From the NCBI RefSeq assembly GCF_003148475.1, contig NZ_QGGG01000011.1:62001-126000 (forward strand): a stretch of 64,000 nt of DNA, given 5' to 3'. The DNA comes from Pseudaminobacter salicylatoxidans (GTDB taxonomy: Bacteria; Pseudomonadota; Alphaproteobacteria; Rhizobiales; Rhizobiaceae). The translations under genes were made by a program, and so were the position numbers. Below, in pieces: positions 39,941 to 62,697 of the stretch (positions within the stretch are counted from its first letter, which is position 1; the number at the start of each line of letters is the position of its first letter). The notes under the pieces were generated by a model, which was not told the origin of the DNA, searched no databases, and worked only from the letters and a program-made list of their open reading frames with translations.

Positions 39941-40882
39941 TCAGTACGGCCAATCGCCCTTTCCAAGCGCGCGCACCGCTTCCACGATCCGGGTAAAGCT
40001 TTCACGCGCGCGGCCGACCGAATGGCGCGCGCGCAGATGGCCATGGACCAGACCCGGCTCGTCGAACCACCAGGCCTTGCCGCCGGCCGCCTGGATGCGG
40101 TCGCGGTAATCGCGGCCGTCGTCCGACAATGGATCGCATTCGGCAGTGATAACAGCCGTCGGCGGCAGATCGGAATAATCCTCATCATTGAACGGCGCGA
40201 AGGTGGCGTCCTTCGAAATGTCCCGGCCGCCCGCGCGCATGTCGCGGTAATAATCCATGTCGCGCACGCTCAGCAGCGGCGCGTCGTAATGGGTCACGTA
40301 AGAGCCCTGCCCCAACTTGCCGCCGAGACCCGGATAAATCAGCACCTGGCCGATCGCGGCACGTGCGTGGCCGCGCGTGGTGTGCGAAACCGCCGCCGCC
40401 AGATTGCCGCCGGCGGAATCGCCGCACAGCACGATGGGCTGCGCATAAGTCTTTGTCGCCCATTCGAAGGCCGCACGGCAGTCGTCATAGGCGGCGGGAT
40501 GCGTGTGCTCCGGCACCAGGCGGTAGTCGACCGAGACCACCTCATAGCCGGTGCGCTCGCAGATTTCGGCGCAGACATCGTCGTGGCTGTCGAGCCCGCC
40601 AAGGATAAAACCGCCGCCGTGGAAATAGAGCACCATGGCCGCGTCGTTCGGCTCGGCATTGCGATAGATGCGGACCGGGATTTTGTGGGTCGGCGTCTCA
40701 ACCGCAGAGTCCGTCGCCGTCACTCCGGCCGGATAGCCGGCATGGAACTCGCGGCACATCCGGTCATAAGTGCGGCGCTGCTCGTCCACGCTATGGTCGA
40801 CCGCGTCCGGCGGATAAAAGCTGTTGGTGCGGTCGATGAAGGCCCATGTCTCCGCATCGATCAGCTTGCTGTAGTCGGTCAT
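39941..40882 (-). CDS. Alpha/beta hydrolase, hormone-sensitive-lipase-type esterase
   Basis: The 313-residue protein has the HSL family oxyanion motif HGGGF at 88-92 and the nucleophile elbow GDSAGG with S156. The likely acid is D250 (ECDPL) and the base H280 (LVHGHL). There is no signal peptide. It ends the carnitine gene cluster, 24 bases downstream of the caiD-like gene in the same direction. By context it may hydrolyse acylcarnitine esters or stand in for a betainyl-CoA thioesterase, but the sequence alone supports only a carboxylesterase. Confidence 0.8.
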   Translation of the reverse strand: MTDYSKLIDAETWAFIDRTNSFYPPDAVDHSVDEQRRTYDRMCREFHAGYPAGVTATDSAVETPTHKIPVRIYRNAEPNDAAMVLYFHGGGFILGGLDSHDDVCAEICERTGYEVVSVDYRLVPEHTHPAAYDDCRAAFEWATKTYAQPIVLCGDSAGGNLAAAVSHTTRGHARAAIGQVLIYPGLGGKLGQGSYVTHYDAPLLSVRDMDYYRDMRAGGRDISKDATFAPFNDEDYSDLPPTAVITAECDPLSDDGRDYRDRIQAAGGKAWWFDEPGLVHGHLRARHSVGRARESFTRIVEAVRALGKGDWPY

Positions 40883-40906: not shown

Positions 40907-41689
40907 CTATTTGCCCTTCCACACCGGGTCGCGCTTTTCGGCGAAGGCGCGGAAGCCTTCCATGTTGTCGTCCGAGGCGTAGAGCTCGTCGACGGTGCGG
41001 AACTTGCGCTTGGTGATCCAGTTCATGGCGTCCTGGAACTCCATCGCCTCGGCCTTGCGGGCCACTTCCTTGATCGAGGCGAAGACCAGCGGCGGGCCGC
41101 CGGCGAGCAGGCGGGCGATCTCCCAGACTCGGTCCTCGAGCTTGTCGGCCGGCAGAACCTCGTTGACGAGGCCCCAGCGATGCGCCTCGGCCACGTCCAT
41201 CCAGCGACCGGTGAGCAGCAGGTCCATGGCGACATGATAGGGAATGCGCTTGGGCAGCTTGATCGTCGCGGCATCGGCCAGCGTACCTGCCTTGATCTCC
41301 GGCAGCGCGAAAGAAGAATGCTCGGAGGCGTAGATCAGGTCGCAGGACAGCGCCAGTTCGAAGCCGCCGCCCACCGCCATGCCGTTGACGCAGGCGATGA
41401 CCGGCTTGTTCATGTCGCGCAACTCCTGCAGGCCGGCAAAGCCGCCGACGCCATAGTCGCCGTCCACCGCATCGCCGTTTGCCGCGGCCTTGAGGTCCCA
41501 GCCGGCCGAGAAGAACTTGTCGCCGGCCGTCTTCACGATGCAGACGCGCAGTTCGGGGTCGTCGCGGAAGGCCTGAAAAGTCAAACCCAGCAGGCGCGAC
41601 GTGGCGAGGTCGATGGCATTGGCTTTCGGCCGGTCGAGCGTCACTTCGAGGATTGTGCCTTCGCGGCGGGTCTTTACGACATCGGACAT
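40907..41689 (-). CDS. caiD: Crotonobetainyl-CoA hydratase-like enoyl-CoA hydratase (CaiD-like)
   Basis: The 260-residue crotonase-family protein resembles E. coli CaiD along its whole length. Shared parts are the start GTILEVTLDRPKANAID, FFSAGWDLKAAA at 59-70, and the ending FAEKRDPVWKGK. The two catalytic glutamates lie at E111 (GGGFELAL) and E131 (FALPEIKAG), the CaiD positions. It should hydrate crotonobetainyl-CoA to L-carnitinyl-CoA. Neighbours are the synthetase gene upstream and the esterase gene downstream, all on the minus strand. Confidence 0.82.
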   Translation of the reverse strand: MSDVVKTRREGTILEVTLDRPKANAIDLATSRLLGLTFQAFRDDPELRVCIVKTAGDKFFSAGWDLKAAANGDAVDGDYGVGGFAGLQELRDMNKPVIACVNGMAVGGGFELALSCDLIYASEHSSFALPEIKAGTLADAATIKLPKRIPYHVAMDLLLTGRWMDVAEAHRWGLVNEVLPADKLEDRVWEIARLLAGGPPLVFASIKEVARKAEAMEFQDAMNWITKRKFRTVDELYASDDNMEGFRAFAEKRDPVWKGK

Positions 41690-41710: not shown

Positions 41711-43900
41711 TCAGCCTTCGACTGAAACCACAGCCTTCTTCTCGTGGGAAACGGACGCCGCCGCTTCGCCTTCGTTTGTCACCAGCAGCGCATCGGCGAT
41801 CCAGGCGCCCTTGCCCTCGCCGCAGACGATGAGCGGGTTCACGTCGAGCTCCTCGATCGTGTGCGCGTTTTCCTGCACGAAGCGCGAAATGGCAAGGATC
41901 GCATCCACGGCAGCCGACACATCGGCCCTGGCGCGGCCGCGATAACCGTCGAGCAGCGGATAGAGCCTGAGATTCTTCAGCGCCGCCTCGACTTCGTCGC
42001 GCGATGCCGGCAGAAGCAGCGTCGCGCTGTCCTGGAGCAGTTCGACCAGCACGCCGCCGGTGCCCACGGTCATGACCGGGCCAAACAGTGCATCGCGCGT
42101 GACGCCGACGATCAGCTCGGCAACGCCGCCTTCCACCATGCGCTCGACATAGAGGCCGGTGCCGAGCGGCAGCAAGGCTTCGGCCGTCGCTCGCACTTCT
42201 TCGGGAGATTTGAGGTTCAGCTTCACCGCGCCGAGTTCGCTCTTGTGGGCCACGCCCAGCGCCTTGAGCGCCACCGGGAACCCAAGCTTCTCGGCGGCCG
42301 CAACAGCCTCGGCCACACTGGCCGCGCAAGCTCCTTGCGGCACGGCGAGACCGGCAGAACGCAACAGCGCCTTGGCTTCGGCCTCGTCGGGTACCACCTT
42401 ACCCTCCCCCTTGTGGGGAGGGTCGGCGCGAAGCGCCGGGTTGGGAGTTGCATCACCGGCCTTACCCCCACCCCCGCATTCGGCGCGACCTCCCCACAAG
42501 GGGGAGGTAGAGGGTTGGCTCCACGCCTCGCCGATGAACGCCGCCGCTTCGGCCGCATCCATCGCCTCGACGATGCCCTGCAAGGGCACGATGCCGCGCT
42601 TGAACAGCTCCGCCGCATGCGCCTCGGCCACGTTTTCCAGCATGGAGGCGACGATGGCGCCGCGCGCCTTGCTGGTCTTCAGCGCCGCCTCGAAGGCGCG
42701 CACCGTCGGCCACCAGTCGGCATCCGAGCAGCGGTCGCCGCGCGGGAAATCGAGCACCAGCATGTTGAGGTCGAAGCCGCCCGACACCATCGCGGTGAAC
42801 GTGTCGGTCATGGCCGGTTCGTTGTTCCAGATGAAGGTGTGGTAGTCGAGCGGATTGGCCACGGCCACGAAGGAGCCAAGCGTCGATTTTACCCGCGACC
42901 AATGCTCCTGCGTCAGTGCCGGGAAGCGGACCTTGCGGCCCTCGGCCGTATCGGCCATGACCGAGGCTTCGCCGCCCGAACAGCTCATCGAAGACAGCGT
43001 GTCGCCGGGAAGCGGGCCGAAGGCGTGCAAGAGCTTCAGCGTTTCGAGAAGCGAGGGGATCGAATTCACCCGCGCAATGCCGAGCCGCTTGAGGAAGGCG
43101 TCGGACGCCGCATCGGAACCGGCAAGCGAGGCGGTATGCGAAACCGTCGCCGCGCGCGCCTGTTCGGAGCGGCCGACCTTCATCGCCACGATCGGCTTGC
43201 TCAACTCGCGTGCCCGCGCCGCCAGCCGCTCGAAACCGTCGACCTTGTCAAAACCCTCGATATGCAGGCCGAGACAGGAAACGCGCTCGTCCTCGATCAG
43301 GCCGAGCGCCATTTCGGAGAGGCCCGTCTGCGCCTGGTTGCCGGCCGTCATCAGGAACGAAATTGGCAGGCCGCGCTGCTGCATGGTGATGTTGCAGGCG
43401 ATGTTGGACGACTGCGTGATGATCGCCACACCACGCGTGCCGGGCTCCAGCCGCTGGCCGCCATGCTGGTCGGGCCACAAAAGCGCACCATCGGCATAAT
43501 TGATCAGGCCGTAGCAGTTCGGCCCGATGACCGGCATCGAGCCCGCCGCCGCGACCAGCTCGGCCTGAAGCCGCTCGCCATCCTCGTCGTCGGCACCGGC
43601 TTCGAGGAAGCCCGAGGCAAAGCAGATCGCCCCGCCCGCGCCGCGCTCGGAAAGCTCGCGCACAATGTCGATGGTGGCGAAGCGGTTGACGCCGATGAAC
43701 ACGGCATCCGGCGCGCCCGGCAGGTCTGCCACCGAGGCATAGGCCTTCACGCCCTCCACCTCGTCGCGCTTGGGGTGCACCGGCCAGATGTCGCCCACAA
43801 AGCCCATTTTCAGCGACTGCTTGACGACATTGGGCGCAAACGCGCCGCCGCCGATGACCGCGATGGATTTCGGGCGCAGGAGCCGTTCGAGACGCAGCAT
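41711..43900 (-). CDS. ADP-forming acyl-CoA synthetase with a repeat-encoded insert
   Basis: This 729-residue protein is of the acetyl-CoA synthetase (ADP-forming)/Pat-like family. It has a CoA-binding domain (1-130, IAVIGGGAFAPNVVKQSL), succinyl-CoA-ligase-like domains (150-450) with the phospho-histidine H255 in VSHTASLAGSD, and a C-terminal ATP-grasp domain from about 504. Residues 462-502 (SPLWGGRAECGGGG, PPHKGEG) are translated from a palindromic repeat lying in frame at 42401-42516, between the two halves. In this cluster the likely substrate is gamma-butyrobetaine or carnitine, activated to its CoA ester; that is inference. Confidence 0.82.
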   Translation of the reverse strand: MLRLERLLRPKSIAVIGGGAFAPNVVKQSLKMGFVGDIWPVHPKRDEVEGVKAYASVADLPGAPDAVFIGVNRFATIDIVRELSERGAGGAICFASGFLEAGADDEDGERLQAELVAAAGSMPVIGPNCYGLINYADGALLWPDQHGGQRLEPGTRGVAIITQSSNIACNITMQQRGLPISFLMTAGNQAQTGLSEMALGLIEDERVSCLGLHIEGFDKVDGFERLAARARELSKPIVAMKVGRSEQARAATVSHTASLAGSDAASDAFLKRLGIARVNSIPSLLETLKLLHAFGPLPGDTLSSMSCSGGEASVMADTAEGRKVRFPALTQEHWSRVKSTLGSFVAVANPLDYHTFIWNNEPAMTDTFTAMVSGGFDLNMLVLDFPRGDRCSDADWWPTVRAFEAALKTSKARGAIVASMLENVAEAHAAELFKRGIVPLQGIVEAMDAAEAAAFIGEAWSQPSTSPLWGGRAECGGGGKAGDATPNPALRADPPHKGEGKVVPDEAEAKALLRSAGLAVPQGACAASVAEAVAAAEKLGFPVALKALGVAHKSELGAVKLNLKSPEEVRATAEALLPLGTGLYVERMVEGGVAELIVGVTRDALFGPVMTVGTGGVLVELLQDSATLLLPASRDEVEAALKNLRLYPLLDGYRGRARADVSAAVDAILAISRFVQENAHTIEELDVNPLIVCGEGKGAWIADALLVTNEGEAAASVSHEKKAVVSVEG
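42401..42516. repeat. Rhizobial palindromic repeat inserted in frame in a coding region
   Basis: Two perfect 19-bp inverted copies of CCTCCCCCTTGTGGGGAGG lie at 42403-42421 and 42489-42507, with GC-rich sequence between them. Each copy is itself a near palindrome. This is the common type of intergenic mosaic repeat of Mesorhizobium and its relatives, and its translation gives the familiar PLWGG/PPHKGEG peptide. Its length keeps the host acyl-CoA synthetase frame open, and it falls in the linker between the ligase and ATP-grasp parts. Confidence 0.85.
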
Positions 43901-43903
43901 GGC

Positions 43904-45067
43904 TCAGCCCCCGACGGCGCGCAGCAGCGCGCGGGAAATAATATGCCGCTGGATTTCCGACGTGCCTTCCCAGATGCGCTCGACGCGGGCGTCGCGCCAG
44001 ATGCGTTCCAGTGGCAGGTCGTCCATCAGGCCCATGCCGCCGTGGATCTGGATCGCCTCGTCGGCGATGAAGGCCAGAACCTCGGTGGCCTTGAGCTTGG
44101 CCATGGCCATATCCTGATCGGTCACGGTGCCCTGGTCGTATTTCCAGGCGGCCTCACGGGTAAGCAGCTCCGCCGCCTTCAGCTCGGTCGCCATGTCGGC
44201 GAGCTTGAAGGAAACGCCCTGGAACTTGCCGATCTGCTGGCCGAACTGCTCTCGGCTAGCGGCATATTCGATGGCATGGCCAAGCGCGCGCTCGGCACGT
44301 CCGAGACAGGTCGAAGCGACCTGCAGCCGGGTCGCGCCCAGCCAGCTGTTGGCGACCTCAAAGCCCTTGTGGACCTCGCCCAGCACCTGGCTCTTTGGCA
44401 GGCGACAGTTGTCGAATTCGAGGATGGCGTTGGTGTAGCCGCGATGCGAGACATTGCGATAGCCGTCGCGCACCGTGAAGCCCGGCGTACCCTTGTCGAC
44501 GAAGAACGCGGTGATCTTCTTGCGTTTGCCGCGCGGGGTATCCTCTTCGCCCGAGGCCATGAAGACAATGGCGAAGTCGGCGATGTCGGCGTGGGAGATA
44601 AAATGCTTGGTGCCGTTGAGGACAAAATCGTCGCCGTCCTGCATGGCGGTCGCCTTCATGCCGCGCAGGTCGGAGCCCGCACCCGGCTCAGTCATCGCCA
44701 GGCAATCCCACGTCTCGCCGCGAATGCAGGGATAAAGGTACTTTTCCTTCTGCTCGTCGGTGCCGGCGAGCAGGATGTTGGACGGGCGCGCCACGCAGGT
44801 CCAGTGCAGCGCATAATTGGCGCGGCCGAGTTCCTTTTCATAGAGCAGCCACGACACCGTATCGAGGCCCGCGCCACCGACTTCGGCCGGCATGTTGGCG
44901 GCATAAAGACCGGCCTCGATCGCCTTGGCCTGAATCTCCTCGATCAGTTCACGGCGCAGATGTCCGGTGCGCTCCACTTCCGCCTCATGCGGATAAAGCT
45001 CGTTTTCGACAAAGGCCCGCGTCGTGTCGACGATCAGGCGCTGTTCTTCGGTAAGCCCGAAATCCAT
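43904..45067 (-). CDS. Acyl-CoA dehydrogenase (carnitine cluster)
   Basis: The 387-residue flavoprotein has the acyl-CoA dehydrogenase signatures AMTEPGAGSDLRGMK near 125-138 and REQFGQQIGKFQGV. The catalytic-base glutamate is in the expected C-terminal position, E367 in IWEGTSEIQ. In this cluster it could oxidise gamma-butyrobetainyl-CoA to crotonobetainyl-CoA, the reverse of the reduction by CaiA. It ends 3 bases before the synthetase gene begins. The start at 45067 (MDFGLTEEQRL) is chosen; upstream in-frame sequence belongs to another gene. Confidence 0.83.
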   Translation of the reverse strand: MDFGLTEEQRLIVDTTRAFVENELYPHEAEVERTGHLRRELIEEIQAKAIEAGLYAANMPAEVGGAGLDTVSWLLYEKELGRANYALHWTCVARPSNILLAGTDEQKEKYLYPCIRGETWDCLAMTEPGAGSDLRGMKATAMQDGDDFVLNGTKHFISHADIADFAIVFMASGEEDTPRGKRKKITAFFVDKGTPGFTVRDGYRNVSHRGYTNAILEFDNCRLPKSQVLGEVHKGFEVANSWLGATRLQVASTCLGRAERALGHAIEYAASREQFGQQIGKFQGVSFKLADMATELKAAELLTREAAWKYDQGTVTDQDMAMAKLKATEVLAFIADEAIQIHGGMGLMDDLPLERIWRDARVERIWEGTSEIQRHIISRALLRAVGG

Positions 45068-45185: not shown

Positions 45186-46205
45186 TCAGCTCTCGACCTT
45201 GTCCTTGGCGGCGAGCGCGGACAGGCGGCTGGTGTATTCGTTGTAAAGCGCGCCAGCGCCCCAGCCTTCACCCTTGTTCTGCTTGCCCAGTGCTTCCATG
45301 ATCGCGACGAGGTTGTCGTCGCGAATCTTTTCCAACTCGCGGATCGACCATTTATCGGACTGCTCGTCGGACTGGCCGGCAATCAGATCGACCAGTTCGT
45401 CGTTGAATTCCGGCACGTCCATCAGCTTCGTCCACGGCCAGCTGAGGCACGGGCCGAACTGGGCCATGAAGTGGCGCATACCCGCCTCGCCGCCGGCGAT
45501 GCGGTAGACCTGGAACATACCCATCTGCGCCCAGCGCAGGCCGAAGGAGTAGCGCATGATGTCGTCGAGTTCCTCGACCGAGCAGATGCCGTCCTTGATC
45601 AGCCACAGCGCCTCGCGCCATGCGGCCTCCAGCAGGCGGTCGCCGACGAAGGCCTCGATCTCCTTGCGGATCACCACCGGCTTCATGCCGATCGAGGCGT
45701 AGAGCGCACGCGCCTTTTCGATGACGGCCGGCGTCGTCTTCTCGCCGCCGACGATCTCGACCAGCGGCAGCAAGTAGACCGGATTGAACGGATGGGCGAC
45801 GACCAGGCGCTCCGGATGCTTCAGCGCCGGCTGCATATCGGTCGGCTTGATGCCGGAGGTGGACGAGCCGATCAGCGCGTCGGCCGGGGCATGGACGTCG
45901 ATCTCGGCCAACACCTTGTGCTTGATGTCGAGCCGCTCCGGCACGCTTTCCTGGATGAAGTCGGCGCCCGTCACCGCCTCGGCGAGGGTCTTGGCGAAGG
46001 TCAGCTTGCCTTCCCGGGGCAGGCCGCCGGGCAGCATCTGCTTGTAGGCGCGCCGCGCGCCTTCCATCACCTCGTCGACCTTGCGCGAGGCCTCCGGATC
46101 GGGATCGTAGATGGAAACGTCGATGCCGTTCAGCAACAGACGCGCGACCCAGCCCGCGCCGATAACACCGCCGCCGATAGCGGCTGCTTTCTTGATACTG
46201 CTCAT
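45186..46205 (-). CDS. cdhA: L-carnitine 3-dehydrogenase (CdhA-like)
   Basis: The 339-residue enzyme is of the 3-hydroxyacyl-CoA dehydrogenase fold with an N-terminal NAD fingerprint IGGGVIGAGWVARLLLNGIDV. The motif AHPFNPVYLLPLVEIVGG carries the catalytic histidine, and the helical C-terminal domain includes the EAAWREALWLIKDG segment seen in carnitine dehydrogenases. It oxidises L-carnitine to 3-dehydrocarnitine. Some rhizobial versions carry a fused C-terminal thioesterase; this one does not. It overlaps the HD-domain gene by four bases. Confidence 0.86.
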   Translation of the reverse strand: MSSIKKAAAIGGGVIGAGWVARLLLNGIDVSIYDPDPEASRKVDEVMEGARRAYKQMLPGGLPREGKLTFAKTLAEAVTGADFIQESVPERLDIKHKVLAEIDVHAPADALIGSSTSGIKPTDMQPALKHPERLVVAHPFNPVYLLPLVEIVGGEKTTPAVIEKARALYASIGMKPVVIRKEIEAFVGDRLLEAAWREALWLIKDGICSVEELDDIMRYSFGLRWAQMGMFQVYRIAGGEAGMRHFMAQFGPCLSWPWTKLMDVPEFNDELVDLIAGQSDEQSDKWSIRELEKIRDDNLVAIMEALGKQNKGEGWGAGALYNEYTSRLSALAAKDKVES

Positions 46206-46831
46206 GCGGATGCTCCCGCTCTTTGGCTAGCTGTTTGGGGATTGACGAGCGCGACGCGCTCGCCGACGCGGATGACGGCGGGATCGTAGGCCTGGCGGGA
46301 GAACACTTTTTCCACCATGGGCCGGAAGAAATCGAGCGGCAGGGTCTCGTACCCGGGATCGAAGCTCGACTGGTCCCACCGCTCGCAGAACTGGTCGCAG
46401 TCGTCGTAGTAGGGATGCCCGGCGAACTTATCGCGCGCATGGCGATTGCCGCCAACGTGATGCGCATAATAGAGCCGCTGGAAATCCCCGTGCTTCTCGA
46501 CCACCCAGTGGCACTGTTCGCGAACGAACGGCCGCAGGATCGCGGCCGCATATTCGTCGTGGTTGTAGGGTGCGTAGATGTCGCCGATATCGTGCAGGAG
46601 GGCGCAGACGACCCAGTCGTCGTCGGCGCCGTCGCGCCAGGCACGGGTGGCCGCCTGCACCGAGTGGCCAAGCCGCGTGACCTTGTAGCCCGACAGGCTC
46701 TCGTCAAGCTTTACCAGGGCGTCGAGAAGACGCCCCCCGGTCTTGGTGGCAAACTCGATCTCGTGCTCGGTGAGGAAGGCATAGTCCTCGCGGTCGCCAT
46801 CCTTCATCGCCGTGAACTTGACCGTTTCCAT
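46202..46831 (-). CDS. HD-domain protein, candidate PhnZ/TmpB-type diiron oxygenase
   Basis: The 209-residue protein is an HD-fold protein that can be laid over PhnZ. Its metal-ligand residues line up as H56 (LGHSVQA), H80-D81 (CALLHDIGD), H91 (YNHDEY), H114 (VVEKHGD) and D153 (CERWDQSSF), the six ligands of the mixed-valent diiron centre in PhnZ. The Tyr/Glu pair that gates PhnZ is not clear; Y49 lies nearby. It sits between the beta-keto acid cleavage enzyme and carnitine dehydrogenase genes, overlapping the latter. A phosphohydrolase role is the alternative. Substrate unknown. Confidence 0.72.
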   Translation of the reverse strand: METVKFTAMKDGDREDYAFLTEHEIEFATKTGGRLLDALVKLDESLSGYKVTRLGHSVQAATRAWRDGADDDWVVCALLHDIGDIYAPYNHDEYAAAILRPFVREQCHWVVEKHGDFQRLYYAHHVGGNRHARDKFAGHPYYDDCDQFCERWDQSSFDPGYETLPLDFFRPMVEKVFSRQAYDPAVIRVGERVALVNPQTASQRAGASA

Positions 46832-46869: not shown

Positions 46870-47787
46870 TTAGACCGCCACCGGCGCGCGCTTGGTGAGG
46901 TTCAGCTTCTGGCGCACCTCTTCCGGCCCGATCACACGGGCACCCATGTTCTCGACGATGGTGACCGCACGCTCGACGAGCTGCGCATTGGTGGCCAGCA
47001 CGCCCTTGTCGAGCCACAGATTGTCCTCGAGGCCTACACGAACGTTGCCGCCGGCCAGGACCGCAGCGGCCGCATAGGCCATCTGGTTGCGGCCAAGCGA
47101 GAAGGCCGAGAAGGTCCATTCCTGCGGCACATTGTTGACCATGGCCATGAAGGTGTTCAGGTCGTCCGGCGCGCCCCACGGCACGCCCATGCAGAGCTGC
47201 ACCAGGGCATCCGGCTTGAGAACGCCTTCCTTCACGAGTTCCTTGGCAAACCAGAGATGACCGGTGTCGAAAGCTTCGATCTCCGGCTTGACGCCCATTT
47301 CGGTCATCATCGAGCCCATGGCGCGCAGCATGCCGGGGGTGTTGGTCATCACATAGTCGGCTTCGTTGAAGTTCATCGTGCCGCAGTCCAGCGTGCAGAT
47401 TTCCGGCAGGCACTGGCGCACATGCTCCACGCGCTCGGCGGCACCGGCCATGTCGGTGCCCTGCTCCTTCAGCGGCAGCGGCGCCTCGGTGGACCCGAAC
47501 ACCATGTCGCCGCCCATCCCGGCGGTGAGGTTCAGCACCACGTCGACATTGGCGTCGCGGATGCGCTCGGTCACTTCGCGATAGAGGTGGACGTCGCGGC
47601 GCGGCTTGCCCGTCTCGGGGTCGCGCACATGGCAGTGCACGACGGCCGCGCCCGCCTTCGCCGCCTCGATGGCCGAATCGGCGATCTGCTTGGGCGAGCG
47701 GGGCACGTGCGGGCTGCGGTCCTGCGTTCCCCCCGAGCCGGTCACGGCACAGGTGATGAAGACCTCGCGGTTCATGGAAAGCGGCAT
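46870..47787 (-). CDS. Beta-keto acid cleavage enzyme, 3-dehydrocarnitine-type (CdhC/BKACE-like)
   Basis: The 305-residue DUF849 protein shows the zinc motif HCHVRD (H51, H53), an N-terminal FITCAVTGSG and the VRVGLEDNLWLDKG block of this family. It should cleave 3-dehydrocarnitine with acetyl-CoA to betainyl-CoA and acetoacetate. The start at 47787 has a strong GGAGGAA site. It is the first gene of the cluster, read away from the divergent CdhR-like regulator. Confidence 0.85.
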   Translation of the reverse strand: MPLSMNREVFITCAVTGSGGTQDRSPHVPRSPKQIADSAIEAAKAGAAVVHCHVRDPETGKPRRDVHLYREVTERIRDANVDVVLNLTAGMGGDMVFGSTEAPLPLKEQGTDMAGAAERVEHVRQCLPEICTLDCGTMNFNEADYVMTNTPGMLRAMGSMMTEMGVKPEIEAFDTGHLWFAKELVKEGVLKPDALVQLCMGVPWGAPDDLNTFMAMVNNVPQEWTFSAFSLGRNQMAYAAAAVLAGGNVRVGLEDNLWLDKGVLATNAQLVERAVTIVENMGARVIGPEEVRQKLNLTKRAPVAV

Positions 47788-47914
47788 AAATTCCTCCAAT
47801 CGACCGGCGCGCGCACTTCTCATCCGGCTCCAGTGCCCGGACATCGCGCCGTTTCTCGCAAGGGATCATGGCGGACTTGCCTGAAACTGCTTTGCACTTT
47901 ACGAACCTGAATTG
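47788..47914. promoter_or_regulatory. Divergent promoter region of the carnitine cluster
   Basis: These 127 bases separate the BKACE gene (leftward) from the CdhR-like regulator (rightward) and must hold both promoters and any CdhR site. I see no consensus -35/-10 pair and no long perfect dyad. The regulator's ATG lacks a good Shine-Dalgarno sequence. Confidence 0.5.
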
Positions 47915-48892
47915 ATGAAAAGCGAAAAGCCTTCAATCTTTCTTCCCGACCGTTCGCCGCTCAGGGTGACGATGCTGGTTTTCTCCGGCTGCTCCATCAT
48001 GTGCGTGGCCTCCGCCGTCGATCCGCTGCGCGCGGCCAACCGCGTATCTGGCGAAACGCTGTTCGACTGGAAGCTGGTTTCGATGGACGGCGCGCCACCG
48101 GTGACGACCTCGGGCCTGCCCGTGGCGGTCGGCGGAAAGTTCGATCCGGGCGAAAAAACCGACGTACTGGCCATCATCGGCGGCTTCGGCACAAGAATGC
48201 AGGGAACGTCCGCCCTGCTGGCCGGCCTGCGGCGCGTGGCGCGCTCGGCGCGCGCGGTGGGCGGCATCGAGGCCGGCACCTGGCTCGTCGCCCGCGCGGG
48301 GCTGCTGGAAGGCCGCAGCGCCACCACCCACTGGGAGGACTTGGAGGATTTCACCGCCGCCTTCCCGGGCGTGGATGTGCGGCCGGACCGCTACATCATC
48401 GACGGGCCGGTCTTCACCTCCGGCGGCGCCTCACCCACCTTCGACCTGATGCTGCACCTCATCCGTTCGCGGCTCGGCATGGCGGTGGCGCTCGATGTCG
48501 CCAGCGTCTTCATCTACGATCAGGCGCGCGCGGCGACCGACGCGCAGCCGCTCGTCTCGCTCGGCAGGCTCGATGGCTACGACCCGCGACTGGCACAGGC
48601 AATCCGCCTCATGGAAGCGCATATCGACCAGCCGCTGACGATCTCGGCCATCGCCCGGCGCACCGGCCTGACGACACGCGCGCTGGAAAAAATCTTCGGC
48701 AAGTCGATCGGCGAGACGCCCGGCGCCTACTATCTGCGCCTGCGCCTCAGCGCGGCGCGGCGGCTGGTGGTGGACACGGCCGTGCCCATGGCCGACATTG
48801 CCGCGCGCACCGGCTTTTCCAGCGCCGCTGGCTTTTCGCGTGCGTTTGCCAAGACATTCGGCATGTCGCCGACGCAGCTGAGACGACGCTGA
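47915..48892 (+). CDS. GlxA-type AraC regulator, CdhR-like
   Basis: The 325-residue protein combines an N-terminal DJ-1/PfpI-like sensor domain (VTMLVFSGCSIMCVASAVDPLRAANR, then FTSGGASPTFDLMLHLI) with a C-terminal AraC DNA-binding domain. The first helix-turn-helix is LTISAIARRTGLTTRALEKIF and the second is ADIAARTGFSSAAGFSRAFAK. This is the architecture of CdhR and GbdR, which control carnitine and betaine genes in Pseudomonas. Divergent orientation to the BKACE gene supports a role as its activator. ATG 47915 is used; the TTG just before is unlikely. Confidence 0.78.
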   Translation: MKSEKPSIFLPDRSPLRVTMLVFSGCSIMCVASAVDPLRAANRVSGETLFDWKLVSMDGAPPVTTSGLPVAVGGKFDPGEKTDVLAIIGGFGTRMQGTSALLAGLRRVARSARAVGGIEAGTWLVARAGLLEGRSATTHWEDLEDFTAAFPGVDVRPDRYIIDGPVFTSGGASPTFDLMLHLIRSRLGMAVALDVASVFIYDQARAATDAQPLVSLGRLDGYDPRLAQAIRLMEAHIDQPLTISAIARRTGLTTRALEKIFGKSIGETPGAYYLRLRLSAARRLVVDTAVPMADIAARTGFSSAAGFSRAFAKTFGMSPTQLRRR

Positions 48893-61710: not shown

Positions 61711-62697
61711 TCAGTCGACGAAGCAGTTGCAGTTTTCGAGATCCGCCGGCAGTTCGGCGCCAAAGGCCTTCAGCGTGGCCTTGTTGATCAGCGGAGCATG
61801 GTCCTGATAGGCCGGCTTGCTCGGAGCGATGGTCTTCGGGTCCGCACCCTTCAGGATCTCGACCGCGATCTTGCCGGCATTGATGCCGACCTGCGTGTAG
61901 TTGACGGCGAAGCTGGCCGGCACGATACCCTTGCGCACGGCGTCGTCGTCTGAGTTGACGATCGGGATGCCGGCCTGACGGGCGGCGGCGGCGACGGCCG
62001 GGATCGCCGGCTGCAGCAGGTTGGACGCGGGCGTGTAGATCACGTCGGCCTTGCCGGCGAGGGAAGCGATGCGCTGCTGGATGTCGTTGACGTTGTCGAC
62101 GCCGACCGGAACGACTTCGAAACCGGCGGCCGGCGCGGCTTCCTTGACCTTGTCGAGCAGGGCCACGTCATTGGCCTCGCCCGGATTGTAAGGCTGGCCG
62201 AAGCGCTTGGCGTTGGGTAGCAGTTTGTGGGTGAATTCCATGACCGCGGCGATGTCCTGCAGGTCGGTGGCGCCCGTGATGCCCTCGTCGCCGGCATCCC
62301 ACGACGGGACCAGCTTGGCCGCGACCGGATCGGTGACGGCAGTGAAGACAATCGGGATGCCGGAGCCGGCAAGCGCCTTCTTGGCGATCTGCGAAACCGG
62401 CGTGGTGACGGTGTAGACCAGCTTCGGGTTTTCCGCCTGCAGCTTGGCGATCATCTGCGGCACCAGCGAGGCGTCGAAATTGGTGTGGCTCTCGGTGTAA
62501 ACGACGTCCTTGCCTTCGACATAGCCGGCGTCGGTCAGCGCCTTCTTGAAGCCGTCGATCGAGGCGTTGAGCTGAGGATGCTCGCCGAAATTGGCGATGC
62601 CGATCTTGATCGGGTCGGCGAGAGCGGAGCCCATACCCGCCACGAAAACGCCAGCCGCGACGATGCCGCGCAACCAGCCGGTCCTTGCCTTGTTCAT
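61711..62697 (-). CDS. ABC transporter substrate-binding protein, TrpX-like (PF04392)
   Basis: The 328-residue protein has a signal peptide (GIVAAGVFVAGMGSALA) and the fold of the ABC_sub_bind family. Typical pieces are IGIANFGEHPQLNASIDGFKKAL, VYTVTTPVSQIAKKAL and the VYTPASNLLQPAIPAVAAAAR region. In firmicutes these proteins bind tryptophan. Grouping with kynU suggests an aromatic substrate. The ending ENCNCFVD carries two cysteines that could form a disulfide. It is the first gene of the operon. Confidence 0.85.
   Translation of the reverse strand: MNKARTGWLRGIVAAGVFVAGMGSALADPIKIGIANFGEHPQLNASIDGFKKALTDAGYVEGKDVVYTESHTNFDASLVPQMIAKLQAENPKLVYTVTTPVSQIAKKALAGSGIPIVFTAVTDPVAAKLVPSWDAGDEGITGATDLQDIAAVMEFTHKLLPNAKRFGQPYNPGEANDVALLDKVKEAAPAAGFEVVPVGVDNVNDIQQRIASLAGKADVIYTPASNLLQPAIPAVAAAARQAGIPIVNSDDDAVRKGIVPASFAVNYTQVGINAGKIAVEILKGADPKTIAPSKPAYQDHAPLINKATLKAFGAELPADLENCNCFVD

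Follow-up and report, generated by a model that had tools for sequence, protein, structure and literature searches.

The carnitine operon in the window (the whole 64,000-nucleotide stretch analysed here, positions 62,001 to 126,000 of contig NZ_QGGG01000011.1 of Pseudaminobacter salicylatoxidans) carries, between the genes for a beta-keto acid cleavage enzyme (BKACE) and carnitine 3-dehydrogenase (CdhA), a 209-codon gene (46202..46831, minus strand, ATG to TGA) for an HD-domain protein, which with moderate confidence we take to be an O2-dependent HD diiron oxygenase of its own subfamily, likely acting on a carnitine-like hydroxylated trimethylammonium acid. That the protein is an oxygenase of the MIOX/PhnZ kind is very probable and that its substrate is a hydroxylated trimethylammonium acid is fairly probable, while its metal content, use of O2, substrate and product are those that we infer for it. 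The coordinates given in an earlier note on this DNA are those of the confirmed open reading frame (ORF), to which the strand can now be added; the gene also lies, as that note had it, just after the dehydrocarnitine cleavage gene (the BKACE stop is 38 bp upstream of its start) and overlaps cdhA, its TGA and the cdhA ATG sharing the 4 bp ATGA, and it is probably translationally coupled to cdhA. The plus strand across 46202-46831 is an open frame too, unrelated to the HD protein; by sequence comparison the HD ORF is judged a real gene because 77 named loci encode relatives that are 49-96% identical to it in the best segment.

The six ligand positions proposed from the sequence (H56, H80, D81, H91, H114 and D153) are numbered correctly, and the H..HD..H..H..D motif is kept in all 58 sequences of an alignment (A2; the window protein and others 27-79% identical to it, out of 155 in our tree) in which the sole invariant columns are H56, A61, L78, H80, D81, H91, H114, F117 and D153. 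The structure comparison suggested in the earlier note, run here on a predicted model (predicted local distance difference test score, pLDDT, 92.3), ranks PhnZ, TmpB and MIOX first and hydrolases below all listed oxygenases; the modelled fold thus appears nearer to known oxygenases than to HD hydrolases, which would not be its closest structural relatives. The PhnZ/TmpB-type assignment made at the outset therefore stands, on the fold ranking, as kinship with the PhnZ, TmpB and MIOX oxygenases and not with phosphohydrolases, and falls as membership in PhnZ or TmpB.

Several comparisons separate the protein from each known enzyme. Against PhnZ (2-amino-1-hydroxyethylphosphonate oxygenase; PDB 4N71, 4MLN, 4N6W, 4MLM), it scores 37.1 bits on TIGR03276 (cut-off 214.6), has L46 and Y49 where PhnZ has the YxxE residues Y24 and E27, and reads HDIGD84 in place of HDLGH. 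Against TmpB ((R)-1-hydroxy-2-trimethylaminoethylphosphonate oxygenase; PDB 6NPA), it scores 29.5 bits on NF049941 (cut-off 300). The window genome holds at least one further HD oxygenase, on another contig, which scores 360 bits on this TmpB model and directly follows a TauD protein of 599 bits on the TmpA model (cut-off 400); this genuine TmpA-TmpB pair implies that the HD protein of the carnitine operon is a different enzyme. The two are 27% identical, the YLGE and HVAAK motifs of the resident TmpB are absent from the window protein, and the HD histidine is separated from the next ligand histidine by 11 residues here versus 22 in that TmpB. For MIOX (myo-inositol oxygenase), PF05153 gives 21.9 bits, below the 25-bit gathering cut-off, and MIOX chains are longer (241-258 residues in the structures listed). 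Orthology to PhnZ or TmpB is ruled out by the model scores, the missing YxxE and the resident TmpA-TmpB pair, and sequence comparison supports a subfamily distinct from PhnZ, TmpB and MIOX, of a known kind but new as a subfamily. The resident TmpA and TmpB genes (L232, 278-2079) themselves overlap by ATGA, and an opposite-strand ORF adjoining them resembles, by eye, an FMN alpha-hydroxy-acid oxidase.

The position of the gene between BKACE and cdhA is conserved among close relatives, as the neighbourhood survey that the earlier note had suggested makes clear. Scanning of genome contigs gave the 77 named relatives, 38 of whose loci form alignment A1, and gene-context counts come from a codon-model gene caller and single-linkage clusters. 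BKACE lies upstream of the HD gene in 45 of the 77 loci and CdhA downstream in 43; the BKACE-linked loci without CdhA are L160, whose contig stops after HD, and L163, where none was found. Linked loci come from Mesorhizobium, Pseudaminobacter, Oricola, Hoeflea, Defluviimonas, Ahrensia and Rubellimicrobium, and the gap from HD to cdhA is -4 in 28 of 45 loci and does not exceed 10 bp in 38. BKACE and HD are about 650 bp apart in L163 and L168, with other ORFs between; in L163 (7357-7915) two small ORFs resemble by eye a BrnT/BrnA toxin-antitoxin pair, the first without an NCBIfam match. In L035 and L161 the HD frame is interrupted by sequencing error or gene decay; both were excluded from the tree and alignments, and L115 and L116, which share contigs with L125 and L126, from the tree.

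In the tree of 155 proteins, with bootstrap values not yet wholly stable, two changes account for the carnitine-linked label, and the linkage may have a single origin; L117, which lacks carnitine genes, is placed next to the main linked group but outside it. The second, distant linkage is L050, from a 1.6 Mb genome, where an HD protein 53-55% identical and outside the 81-sequence clade that contains the carnitine-linked proteins occurs with an opposite-strand thioesterase (matching positions 345-480 of the carnitine 3-dehydrogenase model), BKACE and CdhA. The earlier note's link to cdhA/BKACE genes thus holds among close relatives and is lost in the wider family: in an evenly drawn, unselected set of 289 alphaproteobacterial genomes, 82 carry an HD homologue at E<=1e-8, and 59 of the 60 loci fetched show no BKACE, L050 being the only one that does, though no known phosphohydrolase is among those homologues.

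Across the same 289 genomes, HD homologues occur in 38 of 55 CdhA-positive genomes versus 44 of 234 others, an odds ratio of 9.7 compared with 3.1 for the window's xylose isomerase and 4.1 for its alpha/beta hydrolase (itself an operon member, scored at a loose threshold), these two comparison genes being the one correction for phylogeny and genome size. When the genomes are sorted by HD content, CdhA turns up in 17 of the 21 whose HD homologue is close, in 21 of the 61 whose homologue is distant and in 17 of the 207 that have none; the cut-off for ‘close’ was chosen once the data had been seen. These figures bear on the alternative of an oxygenase for a substrate other than a quaternary ammonium compound, such as an alpha-hydroxy acid, with the carnitine linkage reflecting a shared intermediate or a chance cluster in one clade. 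Such an enzyme seems improbable to us: the diverse family neighbours (urate oxidase, class II aldolase, zinc dehydrogenases and DIOX_N oxygenases) and the two tree changes, with one origin possible, would suit it, but the graded presence of CdhA, the second linkage in distant L050 and the retention of the arrangement across Hyphomicrobiales and Rhodobacterales argue against it.

The HD gene is also an optional part of the operon. Near operons from the same genus (L212) and the same family (L213-L217) have BKACE then CdhA without HD between, and their genomes give no HD match at E<=1e-8; a required step in carnitine use is thereby ruled out, and the protein is an accessory, optional enzyme inserted between BKACE and cdhA. 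Among 61 relatives, CdhA occurs in 28 and HD in 12. The same loci bear on the proposal of a hydrolase, either an HD phosphohydrolase or a stand-in for the betainyl-CoA thioesterase domain missing from CdhA. The window CdhA (45186..46205, minus strand, 339 aa; NF005716, 597.6 bits, cut-off 592) matches just positions 1-334 of the 495-position model and so is without the C-terminal thioesterase part, which the Hoeflea protein (L153) has; for the Sinorhizobium meliloti homologue both activities are reported, in work cited in the available part of PMC12482172. This lack, a plasmid record that annotates a homologue as ‘phosphohydrolase’, and a ligand motif in common with the diiron phosphatase YqeK would favour a hydrolase, which is nonetheless very unlikely, as hydrolases rank under all listed oxygenases in the structure comparison and HD and the thioesterase domain are found together (L152, L153), each without the other, and both missing (L212-L217). 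Some of the HD-less loci compared sit in genomes with an HD homologue elsewhere. Replacement of the CdhA thioesterase domain by HD is ruled out by these four combinations. No thioesterase-domain homologue was found in loci L212-L217, and CdhA of Mesorhizobium and near relatives likewise lacks the C-terminal part.

Beyond the carnitine operons, members of the HD family adjoin hydroxylases, several of them tied to trimethylammonium metabolism, which the earlier note had not foreseen. In the class survey, 59 loci were examined, 47 of which have a co-directional gene within 150 bp of HD; among these 62 genes, nine encode 2-oxoglutarate (2OG) oxygenases, namely three TauD, three PhyH and three DIOX_N (two of the latter from one genus). 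The control consists of 112 of the 222 genes lying three to four places from HD; TauD, PhyH and DIOX_N are not among the 25 families listed for it, the smallest of which has two members, so that each 2OG family has at most one control member, or two weak ones. The enrichment gives a Fisher p of 0.009 for a control count of 3 and of 6e-5 for a count of 0. Fatty-acid-hydroxylase/sterol-desaturase-type neighbours occur twice. Of five TauD neighbours tested, four match the TmpA model best (334-353 bits, cut-off 400), and the fifth, in L038 and divergent rather than co-directional, is best on gamma-butyrobetaine dioxygenase (326 bits, cut-off 415). A Pseudomonas aeruginosa plasmid has the order TauD, HD, choline-binding protein, choline dehydrogenase, aldehyde dehydrogenase.

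Within the 81-sequence clade, 80 of the 209 positions are fully conserved or deviate in a single case, among them the ligands, D84, N90-Y94 and Q118. One subclade of 17 loci (mostly Mesorhizobium, plus Rhizobium, Ensifer and Pseudaminobacter) has an amidohydrolase-fold protein in 15, a small Rieske protein in 14, and the order amidohydrolase, Rieske, HD in 13. The amidohydrolase-type enzyme beside the HD gene of L173 has as its best PDB matches 8SM7 (1.7e-82) and SfbO (8SM6, 2.8e-79), described in the available text of two papers as amidohydrolase-related dinuclear oxygenases found via a Rieske neighbour (PMC10811679; PMC10401708), with a native substrate that, for SfbO, its authors in that text call unknown (PMC10811679). 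This SfbO/AibH2 likeness belongs to the neighbour of a sister-subclade HD protein, with its Rieske ferredoxin alongside, and not to the window protein. The 17 loci include an MTTB cluster in five, a BetI-type regulator in four, choline dehydrogenase in two and choline-binding protein in two, versus three, none, four and one, respectively, in 87 other loci. Of two further groups, one is a mostly Rhodobacterales subclade of 12 sequences, itself weakly supported, in which six loci contain PhyH; the other comprises five Hyphomicrobiales sequences that have a CbiX gene as neighbour and show no hydroxylase. In L173 (6518-12746), L175, L184 and L200 the amidohydrolase-type oxygenase, Rieske ferredoxin and HD form a repeated unit close to genes for an MTTB methyltransferase and an FMN oxidoreductase, likely representing a catabolic pathway.

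By analogy with PhnZ, TmpB and MIOX, a mixed-valent Fe(II)/Fe(III) diiron centre would be held by H56, H80, D81, H91, H114 and D153; one iron would bind the substrate via its hydroxyl (and a neighbouring acid group) and the other O2, and removal of the carbinol hydrogen would lead to breakage of the bond next to the hydroxylated carbon, yielding a carboxylate without external reductant. Elsewhere in the family a neighbouring hydroxylase, be it a TmpA/BBOX-like TauD, a PhyH or a Rieske-linked amidohydrolase-type oxygenase, would supply the hydroxyl. In the 45 carnitine-linked loci (as fetched, at most 8 kb per side) no TauD, PhyH or amidohydrolase-type cluster members, and hence no PhnZ/TmpB-style pairing or SfbO/AibH2-like cluster, were found; such pairing is present in part of the HD relatives. 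The window operon would need no hydroxylase because carnitine already bears the hydroxyl, and a conserved HD protein with changing hydroxylases, and none where the pathway supplies the hydroxyl, may follow PhnY-PhnZ logic.

One form of this reaction, L-carnitine + O2 to glycine betaine + glycolate by C2-C3 cleavage, would be a CoA-free bypass of the dehydrogenase and BKACE, and we put it forward tentatively, as an unlikely case. In that case HD relatives paired in other genomes with BBOX-like, PhyH or amidohydrolase-type hydroxylases would convert gamma-butyrobetaine to glycine betaine in two O2-dependent steps, as a carbon counterpart of TmpA-TmpB. The equation balances (C7H15NO3 + O2 = C5H11NO2 + C2H4O3); Cahn-Ingold-Prelog (CIP) analysis gives (R)-1-hydroxy-2-trimethylaminoethylphosphonate and (R)-carnitine the same spatial arrangement, with CH2COO where PO3 stands; and the title of one PhnZ structure entry includes citrate, so that the site can probably accommodate a hydroxy-acid. 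Two points speak against the reaction: the bond cut would lead to an unactivated CH2, and the CdhA of the same operon already uses L-carnitine. A clean-up oxygenase for an off-pathway or wrong-handed compound, such as D-carnitine, or trimethylaminoacetone (a decarboxylation product) and its reduced form, is also rather unlikely; it would suit the accessory, patchy presence of the gene between BKACE and cdhA and the report, in the available part of PMC12482172, of trimethylaminoacetone with carnitine in another bacterium's metabolomics, but sits poorly with close paralogues, within the same 81-sequence clade, that often lie beside hydroxylases and away from carnitine genes.

Several observations weigh against an oxygenase for a carnitine-type hydroxy acid. 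The six-ligand motif is not diagnostic of an oxygenase, since the diiron phosphatase YqeK has the same extended motif, and the YxxE sequence, the substrate loop of PhnZ and TmpB (both according to the available text of PMC8177086, the latter in section 1.4), was not found in the HD protein. The window operon contains no hydroxylase, yet already has an L-carnitine dehydrogenase; six near operons do without HD; the class-survey loci are almost all without BKACE; and the co-occurrence statistics are corrected for phylogeny and genome size no further than by the two comparison genes described above. Rieske ring hydroxylases are not enriched (one beside HD versus two in the control), and neighbours such as urate oxidase, CbiX, valyl-tRNA synthetase, class II aldolase (four of the 62 co-directional genes) and zinc dehydrogenase (six of 62, from three genomes of one genus) have no evident betaine tie. 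MTTB and choline dehydrogenase also occur in the other loci (3/87 and 4/87), and the four MTTB loci with additional neighbours in common belong to closely related Mesorhizobium and are not independent cases. Finally, 17 positions, H124 among them, shift between the carnitine-linked proteins and the rest of the clade, so that one shared substrate is not certain.

Just three HD-domain oxygenases, of which two act on phosphonates, are named in section 1.4 of a 2020 review (PMC8177086), and NCBIfam has a further model, for a hydroxymethylphosphonate enzyme. Because the family is large (82/289 genomes) and many members lie beside hydroxylases, it may represent a general two-step ‘hydroxylate, then cut’ module. 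If this is true for carnitine-type betaines, an O2-dependent branch would be added to the metabolism of a widespread nutrient, and substrates would be suggested for the amidohydrolase-related (AibH2/SfbO-like) oxygenases, most of which are without an assigned one. Among the literature matches listed, a scope outside which most subscription journals fall, none concerns an HD protein of a carnitine operon by its title or abstract opening, and priority cannot be claimed; relatives are annotated as, for instance, phosphohydrolase or inositol oxygenase family protein.

The remaining genes of the operon, in the order BKACE, HD, CdhA, acyl-CoA dehydrogenase, NDP-forming acyl-CoA synthetase, CaiD-like hydratase and alpha/beta hydrolase, with a divergent regulator, fit a gamma-butyrobetaine/carnitine route but, CdhA apart, fall under the curated cut-offs of such models. 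BKACE (46870..47844, minus strand; PF05853, E=6e-100) is expected to cleave 3-dehydrocarnitine, and its true start, judged by eye, is probably near 47787, because homologues start at an MPL.MNREVF stretch. The acyl-CoA dehydrogenase (43904..45067, minus strand; Pfam E=1e-51) scores 189.7 bits on the crotonobetainyl-CoA dehydrogenase model, not its best match and below the cut-off of 540. It is followed by the acyl-CoA synthetase (41711..43900, minus strand; ATP-grasp_5, Succ_CoA_lig and CoA_binding_2), the CaiD-like enoyl-CoA hydratase (40907..41689, minus strand; best match the crotonobetainyl-CoA hydratase model, 307.6 bits, below the cut-off of 500) and an alpha/beta hydrolase of the hormone-sensitive-lipase type (39941..40882, minus strand), which is retained at the operon end in most Mesorhizobium loci. 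The GbdR-like AraC/DJ-1 type regulator (47912..48892, plus strand; best match NF052371, 216.7 bits, below the cut-off of 480) is divergent in most BKACE-linked loci.

Other arrangements accompany HD homologues elsewhere. Class II aldolase/adducin genes directly adjoin them in L056, L059, L068 and L083 and may point to a further class of substrates within the family; in three genomes of one genus (L078, L079 and L081) the homologue has a zinc-type alcohol dehydrogenase gene on either side; and in L039 (7199-10292) and L040, two genomes also of one genus, an AlkZ-like glycosylase gene precedes the homologue, which itself overlaps a urate oxidase gene. In other carnitine operons the slot of the HD gene is occupied by a lipocalin-like ORF (L225, L226) or an acetyltransferase-like ORF (L230), named by eye, which gave no hint of HD function, and in the Hoeflea operon (L153, 12012-12299) a SelT/SelW/SelH family gene lies between the acyl-CoA dehydrogenase and acyl-CoA synthetase genes.
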